DNA from: Rhytidiadelphus loreus
Lineage: Eukaryota > Streptophyta > Bryopsida > Hypnales > Hylocomiaceae
Direction of reading: 5' to 3'
Assembly (NCBI GenBank): GCA_947034895.1
Contig: OX344763.1
Span: forward strand, 75,845,093 to 75,909,092
DNA length: 64,000 nucleotides
The stretch's first letter is position 1. Every line of letters begins with the position of its first letter. Below, piece by piece: positions 17,545 to 62,906 of the stretch. The notes below the pieces were generated by a model that searched no databases, had not been told where the DNA came from, and saw only the letters and a program-made list of their open reading frames with translations. The position numbers and the translations under genes are program-made.

Positions 17545-18332
17545 TCCGACCGCGCGGTCTGGAAGACAGGATATGCAAATCATTCAGACATCCCGTGTGC
17601 ATGCATGACATGATACTCATCCGACGGACTGCAACCTTTGTCTTGAAAATGTCATTCATAATTGCCAAGTGCTCTCCAGGATCAGACCGCGCGGTCTGTT
17701 CGTGAGGAGCCACGGGAAGACCACTAGAGCAGGAGATGAACCTACGACAACCGGTACTAGTCAGAATTCGACGGCGTCGAACTCACTGCCAGCCTCCATA
17801 CTTGCATAGGACGATATCTTCGGCAGTGAACGTGTCGTTCATTTAGACCGCGCGGTCTAATTCGAGAGGTCTGTGGATTCATAGAAATAAGACCATGCAT
17901 GTTTCGGAATCCGATGAGCGGAACCTCCCGGAGCAGTAACTTGCTCGGAACATTTTAGACCGCGCGGTCTGAACTGTTGTCCGAACTACTCGGATCCAGT
18001 CCTTCCAAGTAGAGGTAACATGGAGCATTTCAGAGCGCACGGTTTGGAATGAGAATCCAGAATTTTGACAAATGCTGTATGAGCAGGAAACAGTTGTCAT
18101 CGCTTGGACATAAATGAAAATCCGATGTTGGAACACGAGGTGAGGTATCAAACATTTCAGACCGCGCGGTCTGAAATGTGAAATCCGATGGATCTCCAAA
18201 ATGGACTCGCCATTGTCGGATCTCTGAATACGGTCGAAAAACATTTCAGACCGCGCGGTCTGGAATGAGTGGGGGGTGCAGTTTCAGGATATCAAATCCT
18301 CCGTCTCAAAACGTTTCAGACCGCGCGGTCAA
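17545..18332. repeat. palindrome array A, eight copies
   Basis: Cores GACCGCGCGGTC start at 17548, 17685, 17846, 17958, 18162, 18249 and 18319, with a degenerate copy at 18031. The full form is TTCAGACCGCGCGGTCTGAA. At 18152-18179 the dyad extends to 28 bp without a mismatch. Spacing is irregular, 69-161 bp. The array lies directly upstream of the DUF7869 gene, the nearest copy about 115 bp from its ATG, so promoter or transposase-binding roles are possible. Confidence 0.9.
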
Positions 18333-18593
18333 AAACAAAAAGGCCTCACTCGTAAGGTGACTTCCAACCTCAATGTGTTCACACCGTGCAACGTGAATAA
18401 GTCGGTGTACAGACGTACCTAATAAAACGGAGCATCTAGGTAACTAATGTGCAGTCAGGGAGGTAACACAAATGACGATGAACTGTTGTCCAAAATGCCA
18501 ACCAATCGAAAGGCAATTCCATAGGGGAAGAGTGGATAATATAACAATGACAGCCAAACACAATTGATATTCTAGAAATCCAGAATGGTATTC

Positions 18594-18720
18594 CTAGTTG
18601 CAATGCCGGTATTCCAATGTAATGGCACCGCATTCCATTAAAATGGCACTGAATTCGCGAGACAAGAACACTACATTCCGGAAAAATGACAAGCTTGCCG
18701 CCATTCTCGCAAAATGGACC
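18594..18720. repeat. cluster of words resembling the terminal repeat
   Basis: GGTATTCC, AATGGC and ATTAAAATGGC recur here several times. The same words make up the inner half of the terminal inverted repeat and its adjoining bases. It may be an internal binding site for the transposase or the relic of a nested end. Confidence 0.4.
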
Positions 18721-20530
18721 CAGTGAGCAGAATTGAACAACTGATCACAATTCTTGAAATCGGGATACACCCGAAACTGAATGAGGTAAGCCACAAATTA
18801 AATGCATGCACGCGGAGAATGACTTACATTTGCAATGGACAATATAACATTGAATGGAATGAAATCGAGCATTCATTTGGCAATGACAGCAGATCAAACA
18901 TCCATGAAATTGCAAGTACTTGATTTGAATTCGGAAAACACCTTTGCATCCATCTCATCCGAAATCAGTAGGATTCGATGAGGCCGAGCCTTCCATTCCG
19001 ACCACGCAAGTCACACTACGCAAAGGAACGAACCCTACATTCTCCGACTAGGAAGCGAAATCAAACACGGAGACGTCTTCGTACCTGAAAGGGAGGCGGT
19101 CCGACGTGATCTTCCGACTCAAGGCGCCGACGAGCTGCAACGCAGCGACTCACGAGCGGCAGCGCAGCGATCCAAAATTCGCCCCAAATGCGTGTCTACG
19201 GAGCTCACGCGAGAACGACGATGGGAGGAAGACATGCAACGACGGAGCCCGCGGGAGAACGGCGACGGGAGGGAGACATGCGGCAGACGAAGCCGGCGAC
19301 CTAGAGTGCTAGACTTCCTTCATTTAATGCGCTCGGCGGCCAGCACATAAAAGCCCGTGGGGCCCACTTGGAAGCCCGTTCGTTGTGTATCTTTTTGCAC
19401 CTAAGTATGCTGTAGGTAGGTGATGACGTAGAATTCGGAATTTCCGAATGATAAGAAAAGATGTCACTTGGTGATAAGCAAATCAAATAACACAAGAAGA
19501 ACAAAGTTCACATTATGAAAAAATAAACATGTGCGCAAACATTGACATATACATCATATATATTGTGACCACATTTTATACTCTAATTTCAATTTCAGTT
19601 TGGGAGTATTAGTTCTGAATTGTCGAATGGAGGGAAGAGGGGGATAAAATAGAATAATCCTATTCCGATTTGCTTCATTTCCGAGGCATTCAAAACTGGA
19701 TCGGGCAAGAAAAATTAAAGAAGGATCACAATTAAAGGGAGAATTGAACCCGACCATGCATAGACTTGTTCTAAATTGGATTTGAATTATGTGAACCCCA
19801 ACGGGGACCTGGTTCGAACAATGTCCACTGGGATATTGGAACAACTGCATTCAGAACTCAATCACGAAAGTCATTTCCCAAAAACATGCTCACAAAACCA
19901 GAAAGTGAACATTCACAATTCAGACCGCGCGGTCTGAACTGTGAAAACGGCAGAACTTGAAAAATTCCTGCACGACAGGGACTGGACGTCTTCACAGGAA
20001 TCCAGTCATAGAAATTTGTCATCCTCCAAACGAGGCCTTCTGCCTGACCTCGGAGTGTCCTTTCATATCGACAGGTTTGCATTTCAGACCCCGCGGTCTC
20101 AAATGTGAAAGTCACGGACCTCGCGGAAATCGAACAAGCTGAAGGTGTACTGAAATTCAATCTAATAGGCACTCTACATATTGAATAATCACGAATCAGA
20201 ATTACGAACTCAAATAGAAAGGGAATGATACCTTTGGAAGCTCCAAGGGGAACAATAATTTGATTTCATGTAAATTATTGAAAAAACACGCGACCAAAGG
20301 CAATGCAATGCATTCAATTTCATTTCAAAGAAAAGGTCGTTGAAAGTCAGGAATTAGTCAAAGTGGGATGGAACAAGAATTACTAATAGTACAACACATT
20401 CATTTGTCCATCAAGCTCTGTCAATGGCTCGGGCTTCAAAATACGAGGGAAGCGACAAATACAAGAGAATCATGGGACGTACAATAGGGTCATCTACAGA
20501 AAACTCGTGTGATACTCTCCCATTTAATAT
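18721..20530. other. no gene seen; two palindromes and a GC-rich patch
   Basis: A GC-rich patch at 19050-19320 contains near-duplicated CGGGAGGGAGACATGC / GGGAGGAAGACATGC phrases. No gene is supported. The palindromes are listed separately. Confidence 0.4.
19912..20105. repeat. two palindrome copies with long arms
   Basis: At 19912-19945 the palindrome is embedded in a 34-bp dyad with a single mismatched pair. At 20082-20105 there is a variant with CCCCGCGG at the centre and TTTCAGACC/GGTCTCAAA arms. Both lie in non-coding sequence of the giant element. Confidence 0.85.
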
Positions 20531-20533
20531 AGT

Positions 20534-20831
20534 TTAAGGGAAACTCGTGTAAGTGGTGGCGCATTGCAAACGGATGCAAGCCTTGTACCTTCGACGATAC
20601 TTCACTTGGGATTCTCGGGCGAACTTCAAGGCGGCGTCCAAAGTAGTTGGGCGCAACAAGGTAGCGGCGTTCATTTCAACTTGCGCTGCATTTCGCAACA
20701 TCGACACAAGGGAGGTGGACGGCCGGGTGGGAAGAAGGCGGCACAAACTCAAGCACGGGGGACGGTGGAAAGAAGGCGAACATCCAAACGCGGAAGAGGA
20801 GGGCAGTTTCGCGACACTCTTCACAAGGTAA
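20534..20831. other. coding-like GC-rich patch, strand and product unresolved
   Basis: Open in several frames on both strands. The plus frame from about 20553 gives an arginine- and lysine-rich peptide ending near a donor-like ACAAG|GTAAAA. The minus frame has a TTLDAALKFARE stretch. Neither could be tied to a family or to neighbouring exons. It may be an exon of a gene extending to 23.2 kb. Confidence 0.3.
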
Positions 20832-21540
20832 AACATATTTCAATTGTTTCCATTCTTGCTTTCTTGGGATTGCGCGAGTCAAAACCGATCAACTCAAGAA
20901 ATGGACATTGTCAATGGATTGATTTCAGTGTAGATGACACTCAAATGCATGCAAGTCTCAAGAGTTCTATTTCCATCCACTGCACGATGTCATAGAGAAC
21001 ATGTTTTCGGTTTAGGAATTATAGGAGTCACAGACTACGCAAAGAGAGAATGCTTTCTCCTAGTACGCGCTTTCATGGAGCCTATTGTAGGAAATAAATA
21101 ATACACTTCATGTTTCACTCGCCGCTTAGTAACTACGTGACTGTATGGTCAATTTCGTTAAACTTTGAACTTTGAACTTTGTAGATGTCACTGGATCACG
21201 GCTCCGCTCCCTACTAACTTGCAATGCTTGTCATTTCCGAAGTGGGATTCAAAAGGTACCTCCCTTGGCTCCAAATTGCACAACTAAAGCATACAAGTTT
21301 CTTGGATTTGGGGGTAGGTGCACATTCGACGAGGCTCAATGGCAGACTCACGTTTTAGCAAGTGCTCCCACAACCTCAAAACTATACTTGACCATCAAAA
21401 CTTCGGGTACGTTGAACTGACTTCAAGTTGTTGCTTTCCGAGCATTGTGTTCATTGAAAGCCATCACGGCCATTATGATAATCCCATTCGACTGGCGAGG
21501 TTTAGCAACCAGGTTTCGCAAATCTACAAGTTTCTGCAGA

Positions 21541-21977
21541 TCAGACCGCGCGGTCCGAAATCCACAACTGTCCTAGATTTCGGAAAACTGGATCACAAGT
21601 GGATGGAAGAAAGTTACAATTCACACGGACGGGACTGTCACACTTCAAACTGCGCGGTCTGAAGTTAGTCGAAGTCCACGACTTAGGAAATCCAAGACGC
21701 TGTAGGGCCTGTCAGTCACTTTTACGATTCTCCCATAGTCCTAGATTTAGGAAAACGAGATGACATGCTTCCTAGAAGTCCAAAAACTAAAATTGACACG
21801 AACGGGACTCACGGACTTCAGACCGCGCGGTCTGGAGTCCGAGACTGCGGGATTCCATGACGATAGTGACCTTCCCTTCGTCGCTTCACGCCAACTGTCG
21901 AAGATTTGAGAAAACTGTCCAACATCAGAAAATTTCAATGACGCAACCTCCACAGTTCAGACCGCGCGGTCTGAACT
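21541..21977. repeat. four palindrome copies
   Basis: Copies at 21541-21558, 21643-21666 (variant core CTGCGCGG), 21821-21842 and 21954-21977 (24-bp perfect dyad). The arms differ from copy to copy yet stay complementary, for example ACTTCA..TGAAGT and GGACTTCA..TGGAGTCC, which suggests selection for the dyad rather than for the sequence. Confidence 0.9.
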
Positions 21978-22264
21978 CAGTACAACTCACTCAGGAAGCC
22001 GGACACTTCGAAATGCGGTCTTCGGAAATGGTCCACAAAAACCCGCCATTTTCACGAAATTAAAGTAGAATCTGATGCTCGTGTGCTTGCCCATGTATTC
22101 TGGAAATGACCATTACTGTTGACATCAATCTTTGCGAATTCCAATTGGAATGATTTCCCAAACAGAGCTCAAGATTTCTGGCAAGGATACAAACTGTACT
22201 GCTTTGCCCATTATTCTCACTGTGATACATCCAAGGGGCTGTTCCAAGACAGCAAGATGGGTGA

Positions 22265-23196
22265 GTGCTATATGGACCATGTTGGGCTTCGTGCATTTGT
22301 ATGCTGCATTCAATTCAAATCATTTATTTTTTAAATGGCGCGCTCGTGAATACCACTTCGGACAACATTGATGGCTTCCTTTCTGTAGGTCAAGTGATGT
22401 GTGCGTTGCAAAACACAATGGAAGTGGCATGGGGTGCACTATTTGATGCAGCGATTCGGGATGTGTGGGTCATGATGGAGGAGTATGTCCACATCCGCCA
22501 TGGCAAGGACTGCAAGAACCTCAGGTGACCACTCCATGTCAATCATGTCAGACCCCATTTGGAGCAACAAGTAGTACAGTGGGTTTGTACCATGCAATCA
22601 TGTTCTTCACTCCAGAATTTCTTTCGTCCTAATCATGCTCAACTGGGGGCTGCGGCGTGACATACAGAGCTCTCATGGAAGAATTCGACGATGCCAACAA
22701 GCTATCAACCTCCGAGAATGGTTCCTTATTACTACAACTCATTCAGGTTAGTAGTAAACGCTCGTCCCTACCTACGAATAGCATCTACTAGGAGATAGAC
22801 AAAGATTAATATGTCCAATGCTACCTTGTCATCGAAGGGACTCCACTCTCAAATCCATGTCAAACTTTGGAAGGGACACAACAATCTTCAACCACTTGGG
22901 AAGAAGTCATCTATGATATGCAATGATGTCGGTTAAGTTGGTAAACGAATGTTCTAAATTCATCAAGGTTCAATTGCCAAGTACCTGATACCAATATTGA
23001 CTCATTGGAATACGTGTTTCCACCACTACTCTCTCAGGATGATGAGCACGGAACCGAACATCTCCACAGAGAGTCGCAAGCCGTTCATGTCGACCTAGAT
23101 ATTTTTGAGCAAGTGCGGGCTCGGCTGAATCAAGCACAAGTGAATCTGGCAAACCTCTCGCCTCAACCTCGCGGGGCTCGACGTCGCAACCGTTGA
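22265..23196 (+). other. possible 3' exons of an unidentified gene
   Basis: Two stretches look coding on the plus strand. 22380-22527 ends in an acidic/aromatic segment (VMMEEYVHIRHGKD). 22960-23196 reads DSLEYVFPPLLSQDDEHGTE and ends with a basic PRGARRRNR tail and a stop. The exon joins could not be resolved and no family is recognised. If real, it is a third gene of the giant element. Confidence 0.3.
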
Positions 23197-23199
23197 TCG

Positions 23200-26100
23200 C
23201 ACTTTTTTGCGGGTTCACTGTATCTATGAGGAATCAGCTCTTGCTGAGTAGCATTGCATGGGGAACAGGTTTTATAGAAAAAAGACATTGCCCTTGTTAT
23301 ATTGCTTCATATTCCGTTCGTAGTCTCTTGTTTTCCTAGAACGAAAGATGTATGCTGTGAATTCCTACTCATGGCAATCATCTATACTGCTTGGTTTTTC
23401 ACTTCTGGCTTCCAATCCAGATCCTTCCAATGTCAGTTATTTTGGGACTTTATGAATATAAGATTTGTTATGGTGGTCTATATTTGCATCCGGGGTTTCA
23501 ACTACCTAGGGGGGGTGGCTCTCATATTTCAATACTTAGAATGGGTTGCCTCCGAATGATCCAAAAAAACAAGCCTCTAACTACACACAGTCATTCATTC
23601 AGCAACGTTGAATCCTGAGTTTCTTTAAGCTTTAGAATTTTCAAATAATTCTACCTTTTCTTCAGCAATAGTATTGGACTTACAGATGGTGTGTTTCAAC
23701 AAGCCTCTCAATGAATTGGTCTAATTATATACGAATACAAAGAAATGGCAACTTCAACAAATGTGAGCATATTAGCACCGATCTTCTCAAGCCATAGTTG
23801 GGCGGGCCGCAAATGCTCTACATCTATATTTTCCACTTACTAGGATATCTCATAGAATAAATGTCTACTTTTTCATTGGAAATTCAACACATTTTATGTT
23901 GTATATTTCATATAATTATGCTTCTTTGTTATATCTCGTTTCCATGGAACTCATCATAGAGTGAAACTCTCAATCATTTTGTAGTATTGGAACAGTCATG
24001 TTACATCGAATTTGTAAATAATCCAAGTTAGATAATGCTGGAGTTCACTTGCAACTCCGGGAAAACTTCAACTTCATAAGTCTGAAATATAACACTCAGT
24101 TTCTCAAGTTGTGAGTGAGCTTTAGAGAAGGTACAGTAAGCTCTGAACTTCACGCACAAAGGTGAGCAAGAAACTTGCATTTAAAAAGCATCGGATGAGA
24201 CATCTTGCTATGAGATACATGATCAAGTTCATATGTGTGAGAATCATTTAAAAAGCCATGATTTTTTAAATGACAATTGAGTTTGATCATTGAGTGATTG
24301 ACCTTAGGTGTACCTATTTTTTTTTTTTTTTTGGGTAGTATATATGCTATTCGAAATGTCATGGTTATGAATCAATTGTTTCATTTTCACATAATTAGAA
24401 GCAAAATGAACAAGATTTTTGATATAGGGTGATTGCAAGAAACACTTCACGTTTTTTTGGTCCCCTGAACCTTAGATAGCTGGTTTTTTGCTCATAACTT
24501 TTGCATCGTGTGTCCATCTTCTATGAAACTTGAAATGAAGGTACATGTGGTAGTTTCAGATGTTGAGTACTTTTTAAGGCTTTTTTTTATAGTTATTCTA
24601 CTATTTTTAAATTGCCCCCGATTGGATGTCTACCGTGGCCATTTTGAAGGGTTTTAGCACTATTTTCCACCCAAAAATACGAATTTGAAGCTCAAAATTG
24701 GTATACTAGAACTTCTACTAGAGTTACACAACCTTACCAAAGATTTTCTAAAAATAGATAATTTTCCATCTGCCACATGTGCTCAAAGTGCACTACCTTT
24801 GCGCAAGTGTAGAGAACACAATTTTATTTTTCCAATAGTGAAAATTGGTGAAAAGGAGTATCTATAAGTTAGAAAAAATAGATTTTTTTTTTAATTTTTT
24901 AAATTTTTTTACTGTTTCTTAAGAATTAAATTTCAAACTGTCTATTTTCTTGCATTTTTCAACCCTCTTTGACCGTGCATAACTCTTAGAGAATAAAAAA
25001 TTTAGGTCTGAATTTTTGCACATACCATTTTTTTAATGCTGTACACATTATCCATATTTTGTGTACCATTTTCAAAGTACCTAGTTCGAACCACAAAAGT
25101 GACATCTAGGACAGGTATAGATTTCAACAATCTTGAATTTATATAGATTTCAGAAATCTAGGATCTCTATAGATTTCAAGCGGTGTATTTTGAACTACAG
25201 AAGTGCCATCTATGACTCATGTAGATTTCAGACATTTAAAAATGATGAAGTTCTAAAAAATCTAGGTGCGAATCTAGGACATTTGAACATTTTAGACTAC
25301 CCGGTCGAAATTGAAAAAATTGCCAAAGTCAGCGGTGCTAGTTTGTGAGCCTGCGAGCATGATGAGATTTCAAGCGGTGAGCAAGATTGTGCGAGCGTTA
25401 AGTTCAAAAATTTAAAGAAGTACTAAAAAATTAAGAATATTGCTAAAAATAAAAATCCATCTGAAATTTTTGATCAAAATCTTCTATTTTTAGTGGATTA
25501 TCGTATCTATTACTATAGACCTATTGCCGTGAACCTATTACCGTGGTTTTGTAGAATTCAAATGAAAATCAAAATTTCCAATGTTTCTTAAAATATTAGA
25601 AGTAGAAATTATAACAATCATGAACTCAATTGATGTGAAAGATGAATGGAGATGGAAATAAGTTCATATAGAATAATGATTGATTACGATCTTATAGCAA
25701 CAAGGGTCCTCTTAGGATTGAATGGTTGATGGGAGGGTACTAATAATTTTCTCTTAATGCACTGTTGTTAGACTTGTTTCGATTTTAGAAAAAAAACATG
25801 GTTGATAATAATTATTTTTATATCTAATGATCTTTATCACATTGAATTTTATTTTCGTTGAACATTGTCTTATAGCATCATGGATCTTCTCCAAGTCAAT
25901 GAAAGGGTATCAATACTTCCGTCTTGATTTGTAAGTCTGTAGACTTGTTTAGATTTTCGAAACAAAAATTTGTTCATAACAAATAATTCATTATATGTAG
26001 AAATAGTTTAGGTGAAGCAAATTTCATTTTTGTTGGTCACTATTTTGTAGTAGCATGGATCTTCTTAGGGCTGATGGAAGGTATTTGTACGTTTGTCTTA

Positions 26101-29100
26101 ATGAGCGTATAACTGAGCTTGTTCAAAATTTGAAAGAAAATTTTTGGTTTATTGTCGTATGTGCTATTTAAAATATCATGGTTATAAATCAATTGTTTAG
26201 CGTTCACATAAAAGCACAATATTCAAAATTCCTAGGTGTCAATAATATTTGAGCTACTAACAATGTCATGAACCCCTATAAGGTCTTAGTTAGTATAGAT
26301 CCATTTTTCAAATCGTCAAGGTGTGATATAAATTGCAATTTTTTCTTTTCTATGATGGAATCTCATTGTGTGTAGAATTTGTTAATGTAAGAGTCTAAGT
26401 CTGTGACGATTTGAAATTATTGTTCCATCTTCAAAAGATAGACTGAGTGAAGAAATTAATATCAAATATCAAATATGATTCAAATGTCTACTTCAGCCTA
26501 CATTTCATTCTTGAAATAGGATTATATATCAAATAGGGTATTGGAAAATCTCTTGATTTAAAAAAAATAGGAGATATGAATGCAATGGTGAATAAAATCG
26601 AAGAAGAGAAGAAATTAATTTGTGCATCATGGTACATTAATAGAATTGTGTAAGTTTCAATTTTCATAAATGAAAGAATGGTGACAAGTTTAGAGAGCAA
26701 GCCATGTTGCATTCTTTGATATCCCAAATAGACTCACATAATTGTTGTGAAGTGTAGGAGGAACAACAACTTGGCCAGGTACAATTTCGGACACAGTTTC
26801 AGATGTTGGAAATTGAGAAGAGTTGGTACATTGATCTAGATTAAAATACCTCCACTTCTAGAATAGCAACAACGAAACACAATAATTCAAACAAACAAAT
26901 TAAGATAACAAAATCCCAAATTTAATAAACCATCCTAGTAAGTTCGTTATATTTCTAAGTACCCAGTATTGTGTTTTCAAATTATATGTCAAGTATTTTT
27001 GGATTTAGTTCACAAGAAATATGATAGTTGCAAAATTCTAAATTCTTTTTTTTTCGTTTTAGAATGGTGTGTTATGAGTGGAAAAATATGTAACTATTTA
27101 TGAACAGGATTGAGTACCAATTCTTCACGGTCGCATTTTGTGTTCTTTTTATCGCAGACGCTGAAGTGATTATAACGTGGTTGCTTGACCATTAAATGGG
27201 ATTATACAATACATGGAGGAAATGAAGCTCTAACCCTGCTAGCGCCAAGCATTAGTTGGCGGATGGACAAGTCAGTGGTGTAATATATGCTTTCATTGAC
27301 CAAATCCCCCAACCTGTTGCTTTATCGGGGTAAGTACCCAAACACTCAAAGTTTGGGATTTTCTTTTTACATAAAAGCTAGTTATGTACATCCAATTGTA
27401 CCGAAAGATGACCAAATGAATTTGATTCTCCGAAGGATCCCTAGAAGTGCCATATCATTTGAATATTGCGAATAATTGAATAAGTACTTTAGAAATCAAA
27501 GTGACCACGTTTTGGTCACTAAGGAAGTTAACCCTTTAGTGACCGTGGTTGATTTGAGGGGCGGGCCTAGTTTTTCTAGAAACTGAATTTTGTGTCCATT
27601 GCAAAGATGCAGTCTTATATCAAACCGTACAAGGTGTTTCCATAAGGGAGATTCTTCAACCTAACAAAATATGAAACTCATCCAACGGTACAAATTGCTA
27701 TAAATGAGATAGGAGGTTCACAAATCAACCAATTCAAGGCTAAAATTGAAATTTGGGAAGTGAAACATTTTTAAATATTTTGTAGTAAATTTCCCTCAAC
27801 AGACAAGTAGAATAGACATCTAACCGAAGTCACTTCCTATTTTTTCAAGCTTTGTAAAATTAGTTACAAATTCTTGAAGTTCACAAAAAATGGTCATCAA
27901 AACAAAACCCCTTCTAAAACGGGTACATTGAAATGTACCTCTAAATCATGTTTGCTTCTAGAACCTTGCTGGAGTTTGAGTTGCTTTCCTTAATTCTCAA
28001 AAATCAATGCCTTAAATGACCCTTTACAATTTATGCTACATAAATACCGATGCATAAGTTTATTGTGGACATTTATGAGGTTACAAAGCAACCCTTATGC
28101 CTTTTGTATTTTTTGTATTTTGGTTGAAGATTTCCTGTGTGAGTTGGTAAATACCTCGATCTTCTGAAGTACATTTTAAATGATTGATTAAGAATAAGTA
28201 GAACTCCTAATCCTCTCCAATTAAGCAAATTCTTCCCCCTTCTAGAACTAAGCATAATAGACATGTTGTAATCGTTGATTTAATTTGTAGGCAGTGCACG
28301 AGTGCATGTGAGTTGTGAGATTTGAATAAGAGTTAATGTACATATGGCCTATTTTGAGTATGTTGCCAGTCCCTTTCATGTTTGTCCATCAGTGCCAAGT
28401 GCAAATGATCCAAATATTTTGGAAGTTCATTTTAGCATTGGAAATCCAATTTTAGAAATGATTGATTATGATTTTGATGTTCCTAATTTTTTTCCATGCC
28501 CATCCCAAATCTTTATTTTCTAGGATTGAGGATTCATAGAAACGTGCCTCAAATATCCTAGAGCTTGTTCAATATTGTACAACTTCCAAGAATTTAGGAA
28601 AAAGGGCTTTTGGGTGAATTGATTGAAAAAACTAGGGTTGATTTAAGGTCTACAATGTGTGTTCTAAGAGCACCCCTCTTCTTCAAACCACCCCTATTTT
28701 TAAGTGCAAAATAGAGATGGGGTGATTCTTCAACGAAGCACTGAGCTTTATCAATTGAATTCATCGCCTGGAGGAAAAATTATTTTTGTATTGCAAGAGT
28801 GAATCATTGTCTTAGATTTCCTCACATTTCTGTACAAGTTGCAAGTGGACGTATTTTGGGAGACCTATGTCTACGAGTACGTGCTTATATCTTCTATCTT
28901 TGCTAATTTATAAGTAATTCAAAAACGCTTAGAAAAATACGAAACTACTTGTGTTAGGTTGCACATGTATTTTTCTTTTTGTGAACAACTCCATTTTTTA
29001 TTTCTTTCCACGGATGCGTATGGAAAAAGGCAGAGCTGCCCTTCACTGGTCCCTTTTAAGCTTGCTTTTAAGTCTCATTCTTTTAACCCTAAATTGATGC

Positions 29101-29860
29101 TTAATCATGATTTCTTTGGGGCAGCTTTGTGTGGTGTGCGCAGGTTCGTGGGAGGCTCGGGTGTGCTTCGTGAGGCGCGTGTAGGTTCGGAGGAGCTCCG
29201 TACCAACTTGGCGGCTCGATGCAAGTTTGGGTTAGGTTCGGTTATCGGGAGGTTCGGTTGGTCGTCTTCTCCGTGGGCCAGGGTTTCGCTCCAGTTTGCT
29301 GCCATTTCTCGTGTTTGTCTTCCTGTTGCGCCTTCTTTGAATTTTGTTTGTTGCTGCTCTTTCTTCTGTAAAATCTTGTCCTTGCGCCTCCATTTTGCCT
29401 TCCTTCCTTCCACAGTTTCCCTCCTCTACATCTAGTATCACATATCGCATTGATTTCGCGTTTGAAGCAGTCGGCGACTGAGGCGTTCGTCGGGGCGTTC
29501 GTTGAGGAGTTCGGTGGGGCGGGGCGTGTTTGCTGAGGAGTTTGGTGGGGTGACGCGTGTTTGTTGAATTTCTGCAGCTGTTACCTTGTCAACTGCTAAA
29601 GGTATGTTTTTCTATATCGTCTTCAGATTCATGTGTCGTTTTGATCATTCGAAAGTTCCGTATGGTCTACTAGTTTTTTTTCTTGACGTGTTAGAACCTT
29701 TCTCTTGCCTTTGCACATGACACTCTTATGCTTAGCATTTCTTCGAGTCACTCATAACTTAGAAGCCGACCCAATAGGAACAGAAATTATGGATTGTGTT
29801 CTGATAGCATAGTATCATATGATGTAACGTTAGTAGTAGTGTATGGGTTTGTGTTTGACG
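23200..29860. other. AT-rich core of the giant element, no gene seen
   Basis: Much more AT-rich than the flanks of the element. Poly-T at about 24320 and repeated GATTTCA/ATAGATTTCA phrases near 25120-25170. The words GAGCCTGCGAGC and ATTACCGTGG near 25350-25550 also occur at 160-300. 29,100-29,600 turns GC-richer (TTCGGTT and GAGGCG repeats) and could be an upstream control region of the 31.7-kb gene. It may be native or a nested insertion. Confidence 0.45.
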
Positions 29861-29875
29861 TGTTGATTGCAGTCA

Positions 29876-29985
29876 GTACTGTGTCTCTACTTGTTGCGTA
29901 GTTTTCCAGTGACATTGTGTGTCTACTGGTTGCGTAGTTTTCCATTGACATTGTGTTTGTACTGGTTGCGTAGTTTCCCATTTAT
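29876..29985 (+). repeat. 36-bp tandem repeat, three units
   Basis: TTGCGTAGTTTTCC recurs at 29894, 29930 and 29966 with CATTGTGT and CTACTGG between. Units differ by a few substitutions. Confidence 0.85.
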
Positions 29986-30302
29986 ATTCTCATGTTTGCA
30001 TTGCTCGTGTGTTCAATTGTCATGTTTGCAGTTTGTGATTTCAAATTGTCATGCCTTGCAGAGTTTGTGATTTCAATTGTCATCCTGGCATTGTCTATTG
30101 CAGGGAACGCGAAGAACGCTGAATTCAGTTTGCATTCATTGGCGTCACGACATTGGAGTAGGATTCGCAATTGTGCTTCCACAACAATTTGAGGTGCGCA
30201 ATTGAGGTAAGCTGCCTGCAAATCCTACGCAATACTCGTGAATCTTGCGGAAATTTAGAAGAGGCACCTGTAACCGCGCAGTGTATGTAGCGACAGCCAT
30301 GG

Positions 30303-30692
30303 TTCAGACCGCGCGGTCTGAAGTGTTCTAGCGTCCCCGAAATGGACCGGAGTTGTCGACGTAGTAATTTCTGAGAACATTAGGTATAACAGTTTCAGAC
30401 CACGCGGTCTGAAGTGATGAACCGTCCCGAAAATGACCTGGACTAAATGCAGATCAAATCTGTCAAGTTAGTTTAGATACAGATTCAGACCGCGCAGTCT
30501 GAAGTGATCCAAGGCTCCGAAAATGTCCTGGACAAACTGCTGATCAAATTATGTCATGTTATTCTAGATATAGGATCAGACCGCGCGGTCAAAAGTGATA
30601 AAACGTCTACAGAATGTTAAGGACGAATTGCTGATCAAATTAGTCCATGTTGGTCTAGATACTGGTTCAGACCGCGCGGTCTGAATTGGTCC
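30303..30692 (+). repeat. 91-bp iteron array, each unit with one palindrome
   Basis: Palindrome cores start at 30307, 30398, 30488, 30579 and 30670, intervals of 91, 90, 91 and 91 bp. The sequence between is related from unit to unit (TGATCAAAT, GTCCTGGAC, CTAGATA), so this is a true tandem array. The second and third copies have one core substitution each (CACGCGG, CGCGCAG). Confidence 0.9.
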
Positions 30693-30721
30693 CCCGGCCA
30701 TAAAATAGATGGGAACGGTCT

Positions 30722-31683
30722 GTTTAGACCGGGCGGCCAGAAGATTTCCTCAGTGGTAAATGCGATCATGTCATGTTGTCAAGACTGATCCATTACCGAC
30801 GCCTCTAATTATGTAGACCCATTGCCATGGGGTCTACACTATATCAATGGGCACGTCTGAGTAATAACCGAATGTTGGTAGATTTAGACCGTGCGATCTA
30901 AACCATACCCAAATATGCATCTCGAATAGAAGGCCTCTCCATGTTCATCTAATCACGCACCATGAATGAGCAATACACATGGATCACTCAGCCTCCTAGA
31001 AACCTAACACTTTTAGTATTGTAGGATCGATTCAAGAGTGATTGGATACAAAGTAAAAGGAACTAGACGCCACGATGGCTGGTAGCATTGTGTAGAGCCT
31101 CCAAAGGAGTAAATCAGACCGCGCGGTTAGATCCTCGACGGATGACAAATAAAGGACCTACACCAATCCCTGCCCAAGATAACAGAAGTAATGGTTGTCG
31201 ACCCTGCGATTAGTATCTGTTAATTCTCGCCGCATACGCGGTAGACTAAGGAATGACACGATCAGACCGCGTGGTCCGATCTAATAGATGAAGGACTGTT
31301 CCAGGTGATGGGCGAGACGAGATTAATGTCGTTCGTAGGGTCCTTCAGCGAGGAGCATCGTCATCAGCCGAATAGAAAGGGAAGGCGTTTTAGACCGCGC
31401 GGTCAAAACCTCAAGCAGCAGTCATTGTAGAAATACCGTCATGCTAGCCTAGTCTGTCTAGGCTATGAATCGTGTCCCTGGTTTAGACCGCGCGGTCAAA
31501 ACCACGCCATGGACTCAACATAGCATGAAGGAGTATCGTCCTATTAGAAGTACGCTAGAATGCAATAGATCGTCAACGACCGTAGGAAATGAATCCTCAA
31601 CTCGTTAGTGCATCGCATGACCACTGCATGCTGGGCGTGTAGCAATCTCCTGAGTCGTCCAATTTAGACCGCGCGGTCTGATT
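30722..31683. repeat. palindrome array upstream of the ParB/methyltransferase-like gene
   Basis: Seven further copies or variants at about 30722, 30883, 31112, 31261, 31389, 31483 and 31661. Several are symmetric with TTTAGACC arms; two have a right half GGTCAAAAC matching the left GTTTAGACC. The last (31661-31683) ends 25 bp before the ATG of the downstream gene. Confidence 0.85.
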
Positions 31684-31708
31684 TGAAGTACTGCTTGTGG
31701 ACAGTGGC

Positions 31709-45690: not shown

Positions 45691-45707
45691 TGAAGCTCAA
45701 GACCCTT

Positions 45708-47125: not shown

Positions 47126-47380
47126 AGCTCAAGACCCTTCACTCAAAGATGGTTGCATGCGGTTTATGAGGCGCGACTTGAGAATGCGGAGTGCAGATTC
47201 ACCCCTCTGCGTCGACGAATGAAAAACGAGTCGTGCGTTCCGGCGTGAATTTAGAATGGTATAGTTCAGATTGTACCTTCCTCCATTTTTTAGTTTGTCC
47301 TGCAGCACATGGTCCCCAAAAGTTGGGCGTAAATAGTTTCTTCTTGGACTGCACCTTCTCCCGTAGAAGAGAGCTAGAAA

Positions 47381-48033: not shown

Positions 48034-48243
48034 GTTTTGGAACTTTCTTTCAGGTAGCTTGCTCTAAGAAGGCACGGAATGGATATGATTTCGTCTTGAA
48101 CTGGACCCCTCCAACTTTGATTGAATCGAGGAAAAGGTGTTTTTATCACAGGAACCCATCATTGTTGCAGGATTTCATCCCCCCGGCTACCATTTTCGGT
48201 CGGATTTCATTCAGACTTGGGAGCTCTGAACCGCCATTTTAAT

Positions 48244-48272
48244 GGAATACCGCCATTTTAACGAAATTCCCC
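48244..48272 (-). repeat. right terminal inverted repeat of the giant element
   Basis: Perfect 29-bp inverse of 13620-13648, ending ACGAAATTCCCC at 48272. Just inside, ACCGCCATTTTAA is repeated (48230 and 48249), giving a short subterminal duplication at this end only. Confidence 0.85.
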
Positions 48273-51100
48273 ATTCATTCTCTACTACTACCTACTTACT
48301 ATTTTTTTCCTATATGTTGTACTATTCCAAATGATCTAAAATTTTTCAAGCATGTGGCCAACTTATCTAAGATAACAAATCCAAAGAAGCACCACCATTT
48401 AGGTCATTTTTTCATAGAAATGTGAGCTTGTGAAGTGCAGCTGCCTTGCTTTTCGCAGGGTCAAAAAAATGATTTTAGTTAATTTGAATGCTTATATCTT
48501 GCAATCCACCCAGTGGAAATGTCTGAAATTTTTACCACATGTTTTTAATACTATATAATACAACATCCTATGGTTAGATATGTCAAAAAAAGTTTTTTTT
48601 CAAAATTTTGGTAGTTGTACTAGAAATGGCAGTTTTGGAGAGTTTTTGGTGAAAACATAGTGACGGTCCTTTAAGGGTTAAAAAAAGTCAACTTAGTGTT
48701 GACCACATCGGACAGGCGAGACCTCTATTGGACGGGCAAACCGGACATCCGTCTGGTATGTCAACCCTGTCTTATAGATGTCTATATTAGGTACTTGGCC
48801 TATCATGGGTTGGTTTACCTTAGTTGCACGTAAATAAAAGGAGAAACATAGAAAAAAATCACAAAAGGTCAAATTGAAAACTTCTTAATTTTGGTCTTAG
48901 AATGTTATATTTTGATGTTCATGTGAACATTTGATTCATTCTAATTGCACCCATTTTCATGAAAGTCGTGGGCAATGTTTGTGTTACAACAATCAAAGCA
49001 TCTCCTAACCCCTAAAATAATTTGTATTTTGTAGGGCTCAAATTTGAATTCAAATGAATTTTATCAATTATACATTTATACGTAGAACAATTTCACCTTT
49101 GGGATTATTGTATTTTGATTCCATCCTTCCCTGCATGTAAGTGCACTTGACAATTTAGTGTTTTGTTGAATTTTAAACCTTGCCTACACTCAGCTCAAAG
49201 TCTCAAACGTACAAACATTCAATAACTTACTAAGCCCGGATCAAATATACAAAATCGAAGACAAAATAACCCTCTAAATGCTCCACTTAAAGGTAGTAAG
49301 ATTAATTTTGAAATCATTAATTATGAAATAATTGAAAGACCTCCTAAGTCCTAACCAACATATGTCATATGTATATCATTGATTCATATAAAACATTGTT
49401 TCTTCTTTCCATTAATACATTACATAAAAAAAAATTTAGCCCCATACATCTGTACTTAAGAATGTTTTACCTTTTAAAGATATTGTTATGCCGTTTTTTT
49501 AGGTCTTCAATATGTTTTTTAAAACTTTGAATTTAATTCATCACCTTATTTTTTTTCAATTCAAAGTCTATATTTCAATCAAGTTTTGCACTTGTGATGC
49601 CAACTAAAAAAATGAAGGACATGTTCTATAGTTTCCGGTCTAACTTAAGTTTTGAAGTAAACCCTATACCCTAACCCTATTACCCTAAATCCTAAACCCT
49701 AAACCCTCTTCACTGTTGCAATTTTAAAACTATTTGATGTTGTTCAAGTTTATGTAACTCTAGCAAATAAGAGAGGATTGGGTTAAAATAAAGGAAAAAA
49801 AGTGACAAATGGATTCTAATATTCCATGTAGTCTTCCACAAAAATGGGAACCCTAAAACCGTAACATATGGCATTTGCCTTTTATTTTTTTTCTCAAAAT
49901 TAAAATGCAACATTGAGTACATGAACTCGACATTTTTGTGGTCTAAATATTTTTTTATGGCTTCTAAATTATAATGCAACTATCAGTGAATTACTATAGT
50001 TTTTCTTATGGATTGATTATTAATTGCTTATGTAGTACCATATGTTAGCCCCTAAAGTCCCAAGGCCTCTTTTCCATCCTAAACCACTCTAAATTTCCAT
50101 TTCTATAGCAAAGATAAAAATTAAAAAAATTGAATGTCTTTAGGCCTTTAGAATGCACATCTAACTATAGTTTGTAGGATCTCGTACTAGAGTACTAGAC
50201 TAGTGTTCAATTGAATGGAAGAAATTTCACAAACTTTGCCTATGTAGAATTATAGATTGCAAGATATTTGCGTTTAAACTTTAACCCCTGAATGCCCAAG
50301 TGGCCCAACGGCGCCATTCAATGCCACTTTGATGGCAATTCAATGGGATGGAAAGAATTTGGAAGCATTTATTTCATTTTTTTTTTACCTTCCATGTTGA
50401 GTTACAAAAGGTATCTAATTGATTTTGTAGTCTTTCTAGTATTTGCCTCCACATAATTGAGAGTTTAGGGAAGCCATAAAATCACAAAATATGCTACTTT
50501 AGTGTATTTTAGATTTTTGGAAAGTTGTTGCTCCTTGCTCTAAATCTGAAATTTCTCCCCAAAATTGATATTTTCTGAGTTTGAGTCAAACTAACAAAAT
50601 GAAGGTGATTTTTTTCTAGTTCCTATTCCATTTAAAATTTTGAACAAAAACCTAAAATGAAATTTTATTATTGCAATTTGAACTTTGAATGTGTTTTTAA
50701 TGTCTACTAAATTCTAAATATAGAATGAAATGGAAATTGATTTTACACTATGATGTTTGTCATAATGTCATTGTAATTTATACACACATGGTGAAAAATT
50801 TGAAAATTTGAAAATTAATTTTCTATTTGATGTGATTTTTTTAAACTATTTCTTCAAAACTTTGAATAAAAATATATTTTCTAAAACACAAAATTTTAAA
50901 AATTGCGAAGTGACTTAAACATGTGATTTCATCTCTAAAGAATAAATAAAGGTTTTTCCATACATATCTAATTCCAAAATGGCTTCAAATTGAATAGTAG
51001 GCAGCGAGGCTTGAAATCAATGGTCATGGGTCTCTCATTTAGGGGTTATGCTTTAAAGTGAATGAAGCAATTTTTTGGGCACCTTGGCTGCTAATCTGAG
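48273..51100. other. AT-rich sequence, no gene seen
   Basis: Resumes the AT-rich composition of the left flank of the giant element. Holds only the GGACGGG phrase at about 48,710-48,770 and the telomere-like run listed separately. Confidence 0.5.
49660..49708 (-). repeat. short interstitial telomere-like run
   Basis: Degenerate CCCTA/CCCTAAA words including CCTAAACCCTAAACCCT. Another run is at 59056-59076. The plant telomere unit is TTTAGGG, so these support a green-lineage host. They are too short to be a telomere. Confidence 0.7.
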
Positions 51101-55990: not shown

Positions 55991-55994
55991 GAAT

Positions 55995-56285: not shown

Positions 56286-56379
56286 AATCCGGATGTCCGG
56301 ACGTGACGTGACAGGGACAACCCTACTGAGATATGACTCCATCCTTATCTGCGTCTCAACCCTTCACATCCTTGAACGC

Positions 56380-57930
56380 CATCAAAGTGTCTGGGTCGAT
56401 AAGCACCCCTTGCGATTGATTGGAAATGACCTTGGCCCAAAGGTCGTAGACATCCTAGGAAGCTGTAATGAGTTTGATCTCATTGTGAATGTCAATGTCG
56501 CTCTGGTTCTTCTTGCTTAGATAATCCTAGTTCTTCTTGATGTCAATCATAGAAAACTTGAGCTTGATGGCGGTCTCCAACTCCTGCAAATTGACAAATT
56601 GACGATGTCAGTGGAAAATCTTAACTCGATGCCAAAATGTTAATGGACCATGTTGGCATGAAGTTTTGGAAGTGATTGACCCTATTATAGTATGCCAAGA
56701 TTTTCCTGATGACATTGTCGTTTTTGTTCCAGACGACAAAGCAATCCGATTTCTTGAACTTCGCCTTCTTCTCATCAAGAATTTGCTCCATTCCTTGCAT
56801 TCCATGTAAGGCTGCCAAGCAATGTTGGCCATTCATCATCCAGAACTTTCCATCCTTGACGTTGTCGAACTTTGTAGGCTTTGATTTCACTCCTTGAGGA
56901 TAAGCGCAGAGTGTAATCTTCTTATTGGGGTTAGGCATATTGAGGAAGAAGTTCAGCGACCTCATCACACCCTGTTTTTCTAGCTCTCAAATGTTGAGAT
57001 TCTAAGGCGGCTTCTCTAGCTAGTCTATGGAAATCTCAAACTTCTGCCCAATTCCTTCAACGTAAGATTCCGTGCATGTTGACCAGTAATCAGAATATGA
57101 TTTATAGGCCACTTTGTAGTCGATGTCCTTAACATTTCCACCGATGTCTTGCGGAATGTCTACGATCTTTGATGCTAGGCTATTTTTTGCCACCAGCGAA
57201 TTCTTTTCTTTCACTCGTGGTTTTGGCGCCATGGATGGAGACCCAGATGGTTCTCCTCGACCAAAATGTTCCGTGTGCTTGAGATGGATGTGGCTTCGAC
57301 TAGTCTCTGGTGTTACTATGACAAGGGATCCGTGACTTGGCTGATTGCTATAATCTCGCATGAGAGAGATTGGTTGTAGTCTGTCACTTTTGCTAGCCAG
57401 TGATGACTTCAGTTGATCAAATCCATTGATGAGGGAATTCACCCTAGATGCCAATGTCACTGACTACAGAGGGCCTCTATCTTTGGTTTGCCAGTCTTCT
57501 CCTCAAGTTGATTCTCGATGTTCTTTTGAAGCGCCTGGTAGTCGGTGTTCTCTAGTGACTTATAGTAGGCAGACACGGCGAATGTTGTTTTTCGGCTATT
57601 GACGACGTATGAGAATATGTACTTCTCTTTTTTATTGGGGTCGACTGTTTTGCAACAAATAAAGAGAAGTCCATTTGGACCTGTCAAAACCTCTCACACA
57701 GCCTCCGTTAGTGTGACGGGGAGGTTGTCTTTGACCTTCTTGTATTTGGTTCGGAAGGACAGGTGCTTGTTCATGGGAACAAGGACAATAGTCTTGTACT
57801 CAACTTCATGAGGTTCTTGCCACTCCCAACATTCACCAAGCATGTCGGCATCACCGTACTCCTCCCGGTTTTCTTCAAAGATGACAAACCGTTTCAAGTA
57901 CACCTCCAGACCATTGACTTGTGTGTCCAT
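56380..57930 (-). pseudogene. ParB/DGQHR-like gene, broken N-terminal part
   Basis: An ATG at 57930 opens a frame matching exon 1 of the 31.7-kb gene. A single TGA near 57697 interrupts it, and the frame then continues to about 57460 (FSYVVNSRKTTFAVSAYY). A second open stretch, 57460-57020, is a basic linker ending in YVEGIGQKFEISID, which matches YIFGRGQYFELDV of the intact gene. After stops, 56968-56640 gives KFWMMNGQHCLAALHGMQG, the ParB/DGQHR-like motif, and FVVWNKNDN. A weak continuation reaches about 56380. The methyltransferase part is missing. Its start is 31 bp from a degenerate palindrome of the second family and 116 bp from a good copy. The sequence is AT-rich and clearly an older relative. 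Confidence 0.6.
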
Positions 57931-57960
57931 TGTTGCACAAACATTAAACAACTCCCACTG

Positions 57961-58277
57961 TTAACTCGACAAAAGTTAAACATATTTTTCTAATTTATTG
58001 GATTCCTCAACATATTCGAGGATATGAGGATATGATTACTCCGTCATTTAACTCGGCTCGAGTTAAATTGTTTGTGCAGACTGTCTTTCTCCGTCATTTA
58101 ACTCAGCTCAAGTTAAATTGTTCATGAAGAATGTCTTTCTCCGTCATTTAACTCGGCTCGAGTTAAATTGTTTTTGATGAATGTCTTTGTCTATTCTCCT
58201 GGGCCTTAATTATCGCCATATCAGACTACGTCTGTCAATGAATTCTTCTCGAATTTTAACTCGAATCGAGTTAAAAT
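57961..58277. repeat. second palindrome family, 50-bp iterons
   Basis: Copies at 58046-58068, 58096-58118 and 58146-58168 lie in 50-bp tandem units (TTTCTCCGTC before, GTTTGTG or similar after). A 25-bp copy at 58253-58277 is a perfect dyad around one base, ATTTTAACTCGA-A-TCGAGTTAAAAT. A degenerate copy is at 57961-57981. Consensus TTTAACTCGA-N-TCGAGTTAAA. They lie directly upstream of the ParB-like pseudogene. Confidence 0.9.
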
Positions 58278-59055
58278 CTAACAGTGTTGTGACTCAAGAT
58301 CTTCAAAAAATGAATTATCGAGTTAAACTACCATCAAGTTAAATTCAGCCAAGTTAAATTTCCATCGACAATTGTTTTTCAATACTATATTAGTATAGCA
58401 ACTACTTCAGTTGCTGACAATTCTTTGTCACAGCAATTTCCAGCGACTAAACCCTCCAAACTTAAGAGTTCAAAATACACTAGAGCAGGATTAAGAAAGC
58501 ACATTTGAATCATTACAACATCCATTGTATTCAAAGGCAAGTACTCCAAAACAGTTGCACACACAGAAAATGGCAATGCAACCTAAACTCACAATTCAAC
58601 GCAAAAATAATACAAGCTTCGAAATTAAGAATTGCAATGCTTTATAACTGAGCCCAAAAAATTGTACACAAAGAAAATAGCAATGCAATCCTAAATACAG
58701 AATTCAACACAAACAATCTAAAAGCTTCAATTGCAATGCTCCAGAACTGAGCCAAAATTGTTGCACACAAAGAAAATAGCAATGCAACAAAACCTCAGAA
58801 TGTTATGCAAACAAACTAAAAGCTTCAAAACTAAGAATTCTAGAACTAAGGATTGCAATGCAATAACAAAAATTCAGCAAAAGTTTCAATTGCTGTGTAC
58901 TTGGAGACTTCAGCTGTGTATGTCTGAGAGACAAAACCAAAACCAAAACCAACCTTCACACACGAAACTCCAAAAAACTTCGACGAAAGTAGCAAAGGAA
59001 TCCCTAAAATTATAAACGATGCGCTCCCCAAGAAATCTTCACCACCTGCGTTTGC

Positions 59056-60367: not shown

Positions 60368-61704
60368 TTCAAAATGTCTCAAGTCTTTTAAATTATAGGA
60401 AGAATGTTGATCTTTACTAAAAGCACATGTTACAAAAAATAAATAATGACAAATAAATCTCTTGATATTATTTTTTGTCCTCTTTCTTTCACGTAATTAT
60501 AAATTTGATAGAATTTGGAATCGGGACGCTTAAAATATTGATAGGGCTTGTCTTCTTGAAGTATCTTTTTCATTTTGGTCTCAAGAATATCACATGTGAT
60601 TTGAAAATACAAGAGAAGATTTTCAATATTATTATATGTAATAAAATTGAACAAGAATCAACATTTTGATAGGTTGAATCATTTTTAAGAAGATTATAGC
60701 CTTAGAAATTTGAAATAGAAATGTTACAGATTACATAGGAAAAAAAAACACAACAATATCATAATTTGAGGATTCAAAGATTATATTATTTGCTCACATT
60801 CAAGTTAGGGTGAACATTAAAACTATGGAAATTTTTTAATTCAATTCTCGTTTTGCATGTCAAGTCTAAAATTAAAGTTCGTCACCAAAATCATACAAGG
60901 TTGGAAAGCCTAAGAAGCAAAACTCCAATCAATTTATGCCCAATCAATTTATGGCTTCTAAAAATGTACTCTACATTTTTGTTAAATGAATTTTTCTATT
61001 GAAGATGTAGGGCAAGGATCTTATTGCAATCTATTCAAAATCGGATTATTGGTCAAAGTAGACTTCCAAAAGATCCTTCCAAAAATATAAACTACAAAAA
61101 ATAGCAATCAGGTAAGAATTTATTTAACTTCAAAGTTCTTTAGAAAAAACATTTTGAAACCCCGAACATTTAGGGTTGAAATATGTATTCAAATTTTTCA
61201 ACAATTATGTCCAGAGGACAAGATGAAGAGGGTTAGTCAAAAAAATTAGTTCCAGAGAACCCTTAATGTTTAAAAAAAGTTTGTATTCCTAAACCCTGAA
61301 ATGTAGAACTTATGAAACCTAAACCCTAACCCGTCAATCGTAATTGGAACTGTACCCAGAAGGCCACAAAGTGCAGAGGATTCTTCCGATTATTTTTCTG
61401 TATCCGACAAAACAATTAATTCATATCGACATTAGTTTTTGGAAATAGGACCTTTTTTGGGTAGAAAAGCTGCTTTGTTGGCATTGACCTAATTATTCTA
61501 AAATAACTCAAGTTGGAAGATTCTAAAGCCGTTAGCATTTAATAAATGCATTTATCAACGGCAGAAAATAGTGCTACCCTATTTCTATTCGGGGTTCATA
61601 AGGAATGTTTGAAAATCCCGTGCCTTGTATCCGAGATAACCTTCCTTCAACTTTGCATAACACGTTTAGTGACAAAGGTGATCCTCCCCCATTCCCTCAT
61701 GCTG

Positions 61705-61910
61705 AACTATCCATTGTCATTTCCACCGTCCACACTGAAAATCCTCCCTCGTGCACAACTTTCCATTGTCATTTCCACCGTCCACACTAAAAATCCTCCC
61801 TCGTGCACAACTTTCCATTGTCATTTTCACCGTCATCACTTAGAATCCTCCCTGACGCATAGCTTCCCATTGTCATTTTCGGCGTCCGTACTCAGAATCC
61901 TACATCTCTT
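61705..61910 (+). repeat. 52-bp tandem repeat, four units
   Basis: CCATTGTCATTT recurs at 61711, 61763, 61815 and 61867, with CACCGTC and AATCCTCCCT in each unit. The middle two units are nearly identical. Confidence 0.9.
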
Positions 61911-62525
61911 TTTATTGTATGCCTCACGTCTGTTGTAAAGAAGCTCATTTTATTACATCTCTACGACAGTAAGGTATTTCTAATTTTCGTAAGGGTTGCA
62001 GTCAACAATTCATTTGATTAGATTCCAGGTTCGGAAACGCAATACATGTCCCTCAATCTCTCTTCATTTTCCTCCAACATTCATGATTTTGTTTTCTATT
62101 GCAAGATTTGTTATTTTCTCTCTCATGCGACCTCTATGATAGTACAAACCTCGTATCTATAGTGCGCATGTTCTGAACTTGTGTTCTCCAAATAATTTTC
62201 GGTTATCCTATTGTTGGAATTTGGAGAATACTTGGATTGTGTAGACCTATTGGAAACTTTCTGGCCACTGCTTGTAATGTTCTGTAGGTTTAGGGATCTT
62301 TCAGTATTTTCAATTTGAGTATGGGACGCATCGTCGTAAACTCATCAAGTGTCTGCATCACATTCCGTGGTTCATGGTCTGGTCTGTGGGAGAAAAATTC
62401 CACAATACCGGCCACATTTCTAGGATTATCATATAAAAATGTAATATACAAAATCTTCGTAAAATGCGGAAATGGATTTCCACTCGAATCGATTTAAAGT
62501 ATGAGAAATGGGTTGCAAGAGGCGT

Positions 62526-62906
62526 TTTAACTCGATCCAAATTAAATCATATTCAAAGAATTATTCACTGAAAATGGTCAATTGAAGTAACTTCAATTAT
62601 GGACTCAAGTCTTTGAATATAACCAAATGTAGCAATGATCACTCGTTTAACTCGAATCGAGTTGATTGTTCCTTGACCTGATAACATTGTGATACCGAAG
62701 GATATATATAATAATAAAAACTTGGATCCCAAGATATTTAGGCCTCTGATACATATACATACAGCAAATCTTATCATTTAAATACTTTAACTTGAGTCGA
62801 GTTGATTGTGAACATTTGTACTAAAGGATATGTTTTGTAAAATTATTCTTGCCGATAATGACATGGGCGCTCGATCGTAGATCATTTAACTCACATCGAG
62901 TTAAAA
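62526..62906. repeat. second palindrome family upstream of the DUF7869 pseudogene
   Basis: Copies at 62526-62546 (degenerate), 62644-62664 (TTTAACTCGAATCGAGTTGA), 62785-62806 and 62884-62905. They match the consensus at 58.0-58.3 kb and lie between the two divergent pseudogenes. The last ends immediately before the ATG at 62907. Confidence 0.85.

Follow-up and report, generated by a model that had tools for sequence, protein, structure and literature searches.

A 64,000-nucleotide stretch of the genome of Rhytidiadelphus loreus (GCA_947034895.1, contig OX344763.1, positions 75,845,093 to 75,909,092; hereafter the window) contains two related pairs of divergent genes, and each pair is accompanied by its own family of short palindromes. 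One gene of each pair codes for a DUF7869 protein and the other, the partner gene, for a protein of no known family. Most likely, the two pairs belong to giant cut-and-paste transposons of one family, of which the window contains a young member and a decayed one. The young member, element 1, is a whole DNA transposon of 34,657 bp (13618..48274) with terminal inverted repeats and a flanking target-site duplication TCAT (left copy at 13614..13617, plus strand; partner at 48275–48278). Its left terminal inverted repeat, the 31-bp sequence ATGGGGAATTTCGTTAAAATGGCGGTATTCC (13618..13648, plus strand), has a perfect inverted copy on the right (48244..48274, minus strand; 31 of 31 positions identical). 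The left end is also the point, window position 13618, at which homology to another DUF7869-1 insertion (L081) begins.

The DUF7869-1 gene lies on the minus strand. Its exon 2 (14324..16192) encodes the putative transposase domain PF25273 (Pfam E 6.7e-45; 153.5 bits against a curated cut-off of 26), and an intron with canonical signals at about 16193–16337 separates it from an upstream coding part (16338..17430). Splice signals and reading frame place exon 1 of this part from 16338 to about 17309, and we infer a small first exon with an ATG near 17430. Those relatives of DUF7869-1 that carry organism names come from the mosses Ceratodon purpureus and Physcomitrium patens. Partner gene 1 (31709..35300, plus strand) has several exons, an uncertain 3' end and homologues P0121–P0129.

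The type-1 palindrome TTCAGACCGCGCGGTCTGAA, a perfect 20-bp palindrome, occurs at 31 window sites with up to three mismatches versus none in 100 shuffled sequences. With up to five mismatches there are 36 sites, which span 17544–42490 and all of which (36 of 36) are enclosed by element 1. The type-2 palindrome TTTAACTCGANTCGAGTTAAA occurs at nine sites with up to three mismatches, again versus none in 100 shuffles, and at 11 with up to five. Both families are located as an earlier note on this DNA had claimed. A scan of the window for inverted repeats (perfect 9-bp arms, spacer 0–7) returned the two families and three exceptions (10758, 60960 and 62580). At up to five mismatches, eight type-1 sites form an array in the DUF7869-1 promoter (17544..18334) and 12 an array in the promoter of partner gene 1 (30303..31682), while six more lie further upstream of DUF7869-1 (19919..21975). 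With start codons read by eye, partner gene 1 begins about 26 bp from its array and DUF7869-1 about 113 bp from its own, and some of the window arrays are tandem with a 91-bp period. The same note had placed the sites between the divergent genes; the arrays are indeed there, but type-1 palindromes also occur in an intron of partner gene 1 (33414..33613, three sites), by its 3' end (35595..35880, three sites) and in a satellite-like block (39732–42490, four sites).

The second pair has decayed. Partner gene 2 (56350..57930, minus strand) carries in-frame stops and frame breaks and has homologues P0130–P0132 at 41–46% identity, and DUF7869-2 (62907..64000, plus strand), also with stops, continues about 1.7 kb past the window (L004). 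Six type-2 sites (up to five mismatches) lie in the promoter of partner gene 2 (57960..58343) and five in that of DUF7869-2 (62478..62905), with array-to-start gaps, again by eye, of about 30 bp and 1 bp. A search for terminal repeats of this pair between L004 and window 48.3–56.4 kb gave low-complexity and telomere-repeat matches alone. TTTAGGG, the telomere repeat of plant type, forms short chromosome-internal runs at window 49658–49707 and at about 7903–7927 of L004.

The genome comprises 489 contigs, five of which have the size of chromosomes, with 407,041,205 bases in total. Among the best-scoring of 1,810 first-look candidates, the DUF7869-1 exon has at least 71 copies distributed over all five chromosomes; the 70 besides the window copy are 92–98% identical. 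The exact type-1 palindrome occurs 681 times, whereas its reversed control occurs 0 times. The earlier note had named scatter of the palindromes without association to these genes as the outcome that would speak against it. For type 1 such scatter did not occur in the first 50 places listed (all on C1). Of these, 41 have a listed DUF7869-1 copy no more than 45 kb downstream; this distance limit is of our choice and defines a zone covering 0.63% of the C1 stretch. All five DUF7869-1 copies in that stretch have 6–11 exact type-1 sites each, for most of them at upstream offsets of about 2, 5.4–5.8, 14, 17 and 23–25 kb. Another DUF7869-1 insertion (L086) has eight promoter sites at places that match those in the window. 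Four palindrome patterns at up to three mismatches gave no match in 196,402 bases of other DNA from this genome, a partly overlapping set of group-F loci (see below), sequence outside elements and the 3.3 kb between the pair-2 arrays. Eight exact type-1 palindromes at C1:17140491–17254154 stand without a listed DUF7869-1 copy and possibly mark transposase-less elements or copies that were not scored.

A DUF7869 search of the same genome, in which the best 150 of 1,804 first-look candidates were scored, led to two further groups. We chose 26 copies, not at random, for reading of their 5' regions: 20 of group II and six of a distant group F. Arrays of TTATCNTCG-NNN-CGANGATAA occupy the promoters of 17 of the 20 group-II copies, some with 40-bp spacing, and range from about −1,380 to −60 relative to the start codon in the nine copies with measured starts. 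The three array-less copies have no homologous 5' region within the stretch read: in C3_76280 and C1_13687 homology starts within the gene or directly behind it, and about 2.2 kb of unmatched sequence splits the gene in C3_82055. Two group-II insertions, of 18,402 and 18,596 bp, have their own inverted repeats and 4-bp duplications (ATAA and CAAG). In L077 and L079 the DUF7869-side flanks, including the last 0.8 kb to the element end, contain no site at up to one arm mismatch. Palindromes of group-II type recur in partner-gene introns of L075, at a place that matches window 33414–33613.

None of the six group-F promoters contains palindromes. Partner-gene homology was not found in about 10 kb upstream of one group-F copy, and the stretch read did not reveal where the group-F element ends on its 5' side. 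The group-F loci L008–L012, L023 and L029 each hold a single open reading frame (ORF) of 1083 amino acids, with copies 99.6–99.9% identical. Group F is apparently a palindrome-less DUF7869 relative with very recent spread.

In all lineages with sites, the palindrome consists of two 9-bp half-sites that end in CG and are separated by 2–3 bp. The half-site is the same within an element and differs by lineage (TTCAGACCG, TTTAACTCG, TTTAGCTCG and TTATCNTCG), which amounts to at least four half-site types among related elements and three within a single genome. Within a lineage the letters are nearly fixed except at positions 1 and 6 (among sites preselected as CG palindromes), and the CpG at the inner half-site end is kept in every lineage (one survey being preselected for CG). 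All three group-II DUF7869 genes inspected for a partner (L075, L076 and L085) have a divergent one upstream, and palindromes directly precede the start of each of these partner genes; with the two window pairs, the divergent layout with matching arrays is present in five of five pairs. The two promoters of a pair are several kilobases apart, and still each DUF7869 promoter is closest in half-site composition to the promoter of its own partner gene, and the true pairing is the unique best of 120. The two arms also vary together. At position 6 they agree in 41 of 48 sites from eight representative loci versus 20.1 expected (within-locus permutation p = 0.00045), in 31 of 37 after removal of repeats (p = 0.00095), and in 94 of all 114 sites versus 55.7 expected. 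Over 12 sequences, DUF7869 protein distance correlates with half-site distance (r = 0.81, p = 0.00015), a value inflated by several close relatives and by linkage, with one half-site read from a peptide and one copy (C3_19840) near-even at position 6. Pair concordance and arm symmetry carry more weight than this correlation. Together with the 17 group-II promoters, these results support the claim that the palindrome sequence follows the gene pair and differs from clade to clade.

Public data extend these observations. Partner homologue P0131 and DUF7869 homologue P0085 are encoded on one 313,938-bp contig, which suggests that the genes are linked there too. Predicted proteins P0122 and P0123, and by eye P0121, contain peptides that fit a palindrome at the partner-gene intron junction, and a peptide of P0082 fits a palindrome before a DUF7869 gene; such palindrome-compatible peptides are degenerate evidence, and the other partner homologues have none at that junction. 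A scan of GTDB found one relative, L001 (CADCWO010000071.1, a cyanobacterial assembly), with an open moss-type DUF7869 gene and a palindrome version TTTAGCTCGA-N-TCGAGCTAAA; it is probably plant contamination of that assembly. IMG/VR scans with the exact type-1 palindrome, the type-2/3 pattern and DUF7869 returned no locus.

We consider it probable that the palindromes are the lock of a lineage-specific lock and key, in which a dimer of an element-encoded protein binds the arrays and thereby activates the element's own promoters or shields them from host silencing. Bound protein would mark these promoters as belonging to the element, and the DNA-binding surface would change jointly with the array, which would give each lineage a private combination. 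Both binding and function are inferred. The binder is more likely to be the partner protein than DUF7869, because sites are present in partner-gene introns and because the one group-F copy inspected upstream has DUF7869 but neither a nearby partner gene nor palindromes; DUF7869 is a possible binder as well. The earlier note had likewise taken the palindrome for the cognate site of an element-encoded protein and had proposed that the two co-vary. Co-variation with gene pair and clade is supported; the ParB and methyltransferase identities found no support in Pfam and PDB profile searches, and the likeness to parS and restriction-modification is the poorer fit.

These identities were judged by eye from short motifs. 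The search for homologues of partner gene 1, in which the best 8,000 candidates by word sharing were scored, gave nine predicted-protein matches at E ≤ 0.001, none of which (0 of 9) is informatively named or has a Pfam domain. A ParBc domain was not matched by Pfam in 12 aligned partner members at E ≤ 5 (HMMER filters drop most weak matches), and no ParB chain appeared in a PDB profile search with the partner protein. A methyltransferase domain was matched neither by Pfam (at E ≤ 5 or E ≤ 1) nor by PDB profiles, and the position of the supposed DPPY motif reads DF(R/Q)(L/I)FP in three aligned partner sequences, such that the catalytic motif appears to have been replaced. The names ParB and methyltransferase should not be used as facts for this protein. 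In one exon of partner gene 1 the reading frame is broken by a single base within a run of G at about 33715, either a mutation or an assembly error.

Several observations weigh against the proposed lock and key. Nine of the 50 listed type-1 places are not near a listed copy of DUF7869-1, eight of them at C1:17.14–17.25 Mb and one at 1.465 Mb. Between L086 and the window, differences affect 3 of 160 bases inside sites and 24 of 1141 outside; differences inside are hardly rarer than outside, hence nothing indicates that selection has been strong among young copies. The group-II lock is loose, with 20 of 114 sites asymmetric and both C and T present at position 6 within a single promoter; the copy C3_19840 shows a near-even split at this position, and the sites of L085 are more degenerate than those of other lineages. 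In L001, weaker palindromes at 3573–4293 lie downstream of the DUF7869 gene, so the sites are not strictly upstream; this differs from group II, in those copies for which the downstream flank was covered. Group F is an imperfect control because it is a distant DUF7869 group. The correlation between palindrome and protein tree is partly expected, because linked genes and promoters are inherited together. Finally, the partner protein has no recognisable DNA-binding domain and matches no Pfam or PDB profile family.

Some of the same data suit other explanations. A DUF7869 transposase that binds the palindromes for autoregulation, or for pairing of the element ends, in the manner of the subterminal repeats of CACTA elements, would account for the facts that the sites accompany DUF7869 genes, that the half-site varies with DUF7869 distance and that the L001 sites flank the DUF7869 gene on both sides. 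We regard this as unlikely, since the DUF7869-side flanks of L077 and L079 are free of sites at up to one arm mismatch, the sites concentrate at promoters and partner-gene introns, and the recently amplified group F lacks them in all six promoters read. More improbable is a system akin to ParB–parS or restriction-modification, in which the partner protein would nucleate at the palindromes or methylate them as a mark of self: Pfam and PDB profiles show no ParBc or methyltransferase match, DF(R/Q)(L/I)FP stands in place of DPPY, and no nuclease partner is present among the ORFs scanned. What recalls such systems is a kept (N/D)GQH motif, as in ParB-type domains, an F-x-G-S-K-like motif, as in methyltransferases (both by eye), and the inner-end CpG in the half-site of every lineage. 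A narrower version of our proposal, in which a protein with ParB-like and dead methyltransferase-like modules reads the palindromes of promoters and introns and frees its own lineage alone from silencing, by a hitherto undescribed and independently evolved form of sequence-specific self-recognition, seems doubtful to us, with a better chance than either of these two; if it were true, transposon lineages would become regulatory species inside one genome.

Three further explanations do without a dedicated protein of the element. Joint arm changes are also expected from base pairing alone, and the type-1 sequence is perfectly palindromic over 20 bp, so the palindromes might act as nucleic-acid structure (hairpin, cruciform, source of small RNA or recombination point). 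This is very unlikely, as most half-site letters within a lineage (positions 1 and 6 apart) are fixed beyond mere complementarity, the spacer length is constant in the sites detected, and promoters kilobases apart share letters. We give the same slight chance to a functionless repeat that is homogenised by tandem duplication and gene conversion and hitchhikes with the element; the tandem arrays of the window and of group II, and the similar divergence of young copies inside and outside the sites, would suit it, but separate genes have the sites repeatedly, at both promoters and within introns, and symmetric arm changes exceed chance within loci. Least probable is that the elements took up binding sites of host transcription factors. 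Although the arrays do sit in promoters, at least four half-site types, three of them within one genome, and the lack of sites at up to three mismatches in the 196,402 bases of other DNA speak against a host factor.

The proposed lock and key has a counterpart in the VANDAL elements of Arabidopsis, which are Mutator-like and encode the anti-silencing protein VANC. Passages of the VANC literature describe motifs located in introns of the VANB and VANC genes as well as upstream of VANA, that differ between the targets of VANC6 and VANC21, and whose arrays change as tandem repeats (PMC5735166); binding of VANC to its motif has been shown in Arabidopsis (PMC5735166, PMC10398659). As far as these passages go, both systems are multi-gene plant transposons with motif arrays in their own promoters and introns and with a motif type that differs by family, and subfamily-specific motif arrays are indeed present in the non-coding parts of the elements studied here. 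The motif of VANC21 is, by the same passages, a 9-base word in one orientation, whereas the sites here are palindromes of 20–21 bp. VANDAL elements encode VANA, VANB and VANC, whereas those described here encode the DUF7869 putative transposase and a partner protein of no known family; no Mutator-type transposase was matched by Pfam among the ORFs scanned, the transposase candidate being PF25273. The moss system would be a convergent analogue of VANDAL/VANC rather than a member. The comparison with parS and restriction-modification drawn earlier fits less well than a regulator that, like VANC, acts on promoters of its own element. ParB–parS systems have a palindromic site next to a gene. The likeness consists in a palindrome of similar length that adjoins a gene; the differences are the missing ParBc match, the lack of a partition context and the location in a eukaryotic transposon.

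With respect to transposon class, element 1 resembles Sola elements as described in a review, parts of which report 4-bp target duplications, terminal inverted repeats, a DDD transposase, occurrence in moss and sizes that can exceed 15 kb (PMC10741241). We found 4-bp duplications in all three insertions read at both ends (TCAT, ATAA and CAAG), and terminal inverted repeats both in element 1 and as matching ends of the two group-II copies. In an alignment of 15 DUF7869 sequences, all 15 have D99, D102, D224 and D266, 14 have D264, and the invariant aspartates fall in three motifs; a PDB profile search with DUF7869 gave no useful match. With 34.7 kb and further genes, element 1 differs from the Sola description. 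In CACTA/EnSpm elements, TnpA binds repeated motifs including those of the promoter region, and these elements have subterminal sites, 3-bp duplications and CACTA ends. The proposed element-encoded protein on repeated motifs, including the promoter region, is similar, but membership was rejected on ends that read ATGGGG or AAGGCC, on the 4-bp duplications and on the absence of sites in the DUF7869-side end regions of L077 and L079. An LTR (long terminal repeat) element, a virus and a bacterial origin were dropped on the 4-bp duplications, the introns, the moss homologues and the 407-Mb genome.

How transposons escape host silencing without waking all others is an open question, for which VANC is the well-studied plant case. 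The moss transposons are a likely second case, on an unrelated element. They offer hundreds of natural site copies, several diverged versions of the site (three in one genome) and, as a control, a DUF7869 group without sites, and they provide a hypothesis of function for two protein families that had none. They also document multi-gene DNA transposons of 18–35 kb in a moss-like plant. None of the papers searched mentions DUF7869, and nothing among the listed titles and abstract openings was recognised as this system.

Beyond the gene pair, element 1 contains a gene for an NIF/FCP1-like phosphatase (PF03031, Pfam 5.8e-11; 38156..39172, plus strand). A phosphatase-like gene lies beyond the partner gene in both lineages, element 1 and group II. 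In tblastn comparisons the C1 group-II element is homologous to element 1 in the partner gene and in the phosphatase gene (5e-9, 2e-7 and 9.7e-8), and PF03031 is also found in the other group-II copy (L080, 1.8e-12). The DUF7869 and partner genes diverge in element 1 and in one of these two end-defined group-II copies. Between the partner gene and the phosphatase gene lies an ORF judged by eye to be coiled-coil-like (36010..37326, plus strand). It has no Pfam match, and a group-II element has an ORF alike in kind and place; tblastn found no mutual similarity between these ORFs of element 1 and group II. To the right, tandem, self-inverted repeat units of about 1.2–1.4 kb fill 39697..47193, with four type-1 palindromes in the left part of the block, which may be a satellite that arose within the transposon.

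No Rfam family matched at the gathering threshold. A further gene with a DGNHR motif lies at 5443–6153 (minus strand) of locus L005 and has no Pfam match over the cut-off. Another part of L005 (2431–2862, minus strand) is a fragment that is, by eye, nearly identical to window 1971–2354 (minus strand), which suggests that the region may be flanked by a second ParB-motif family or repeat.

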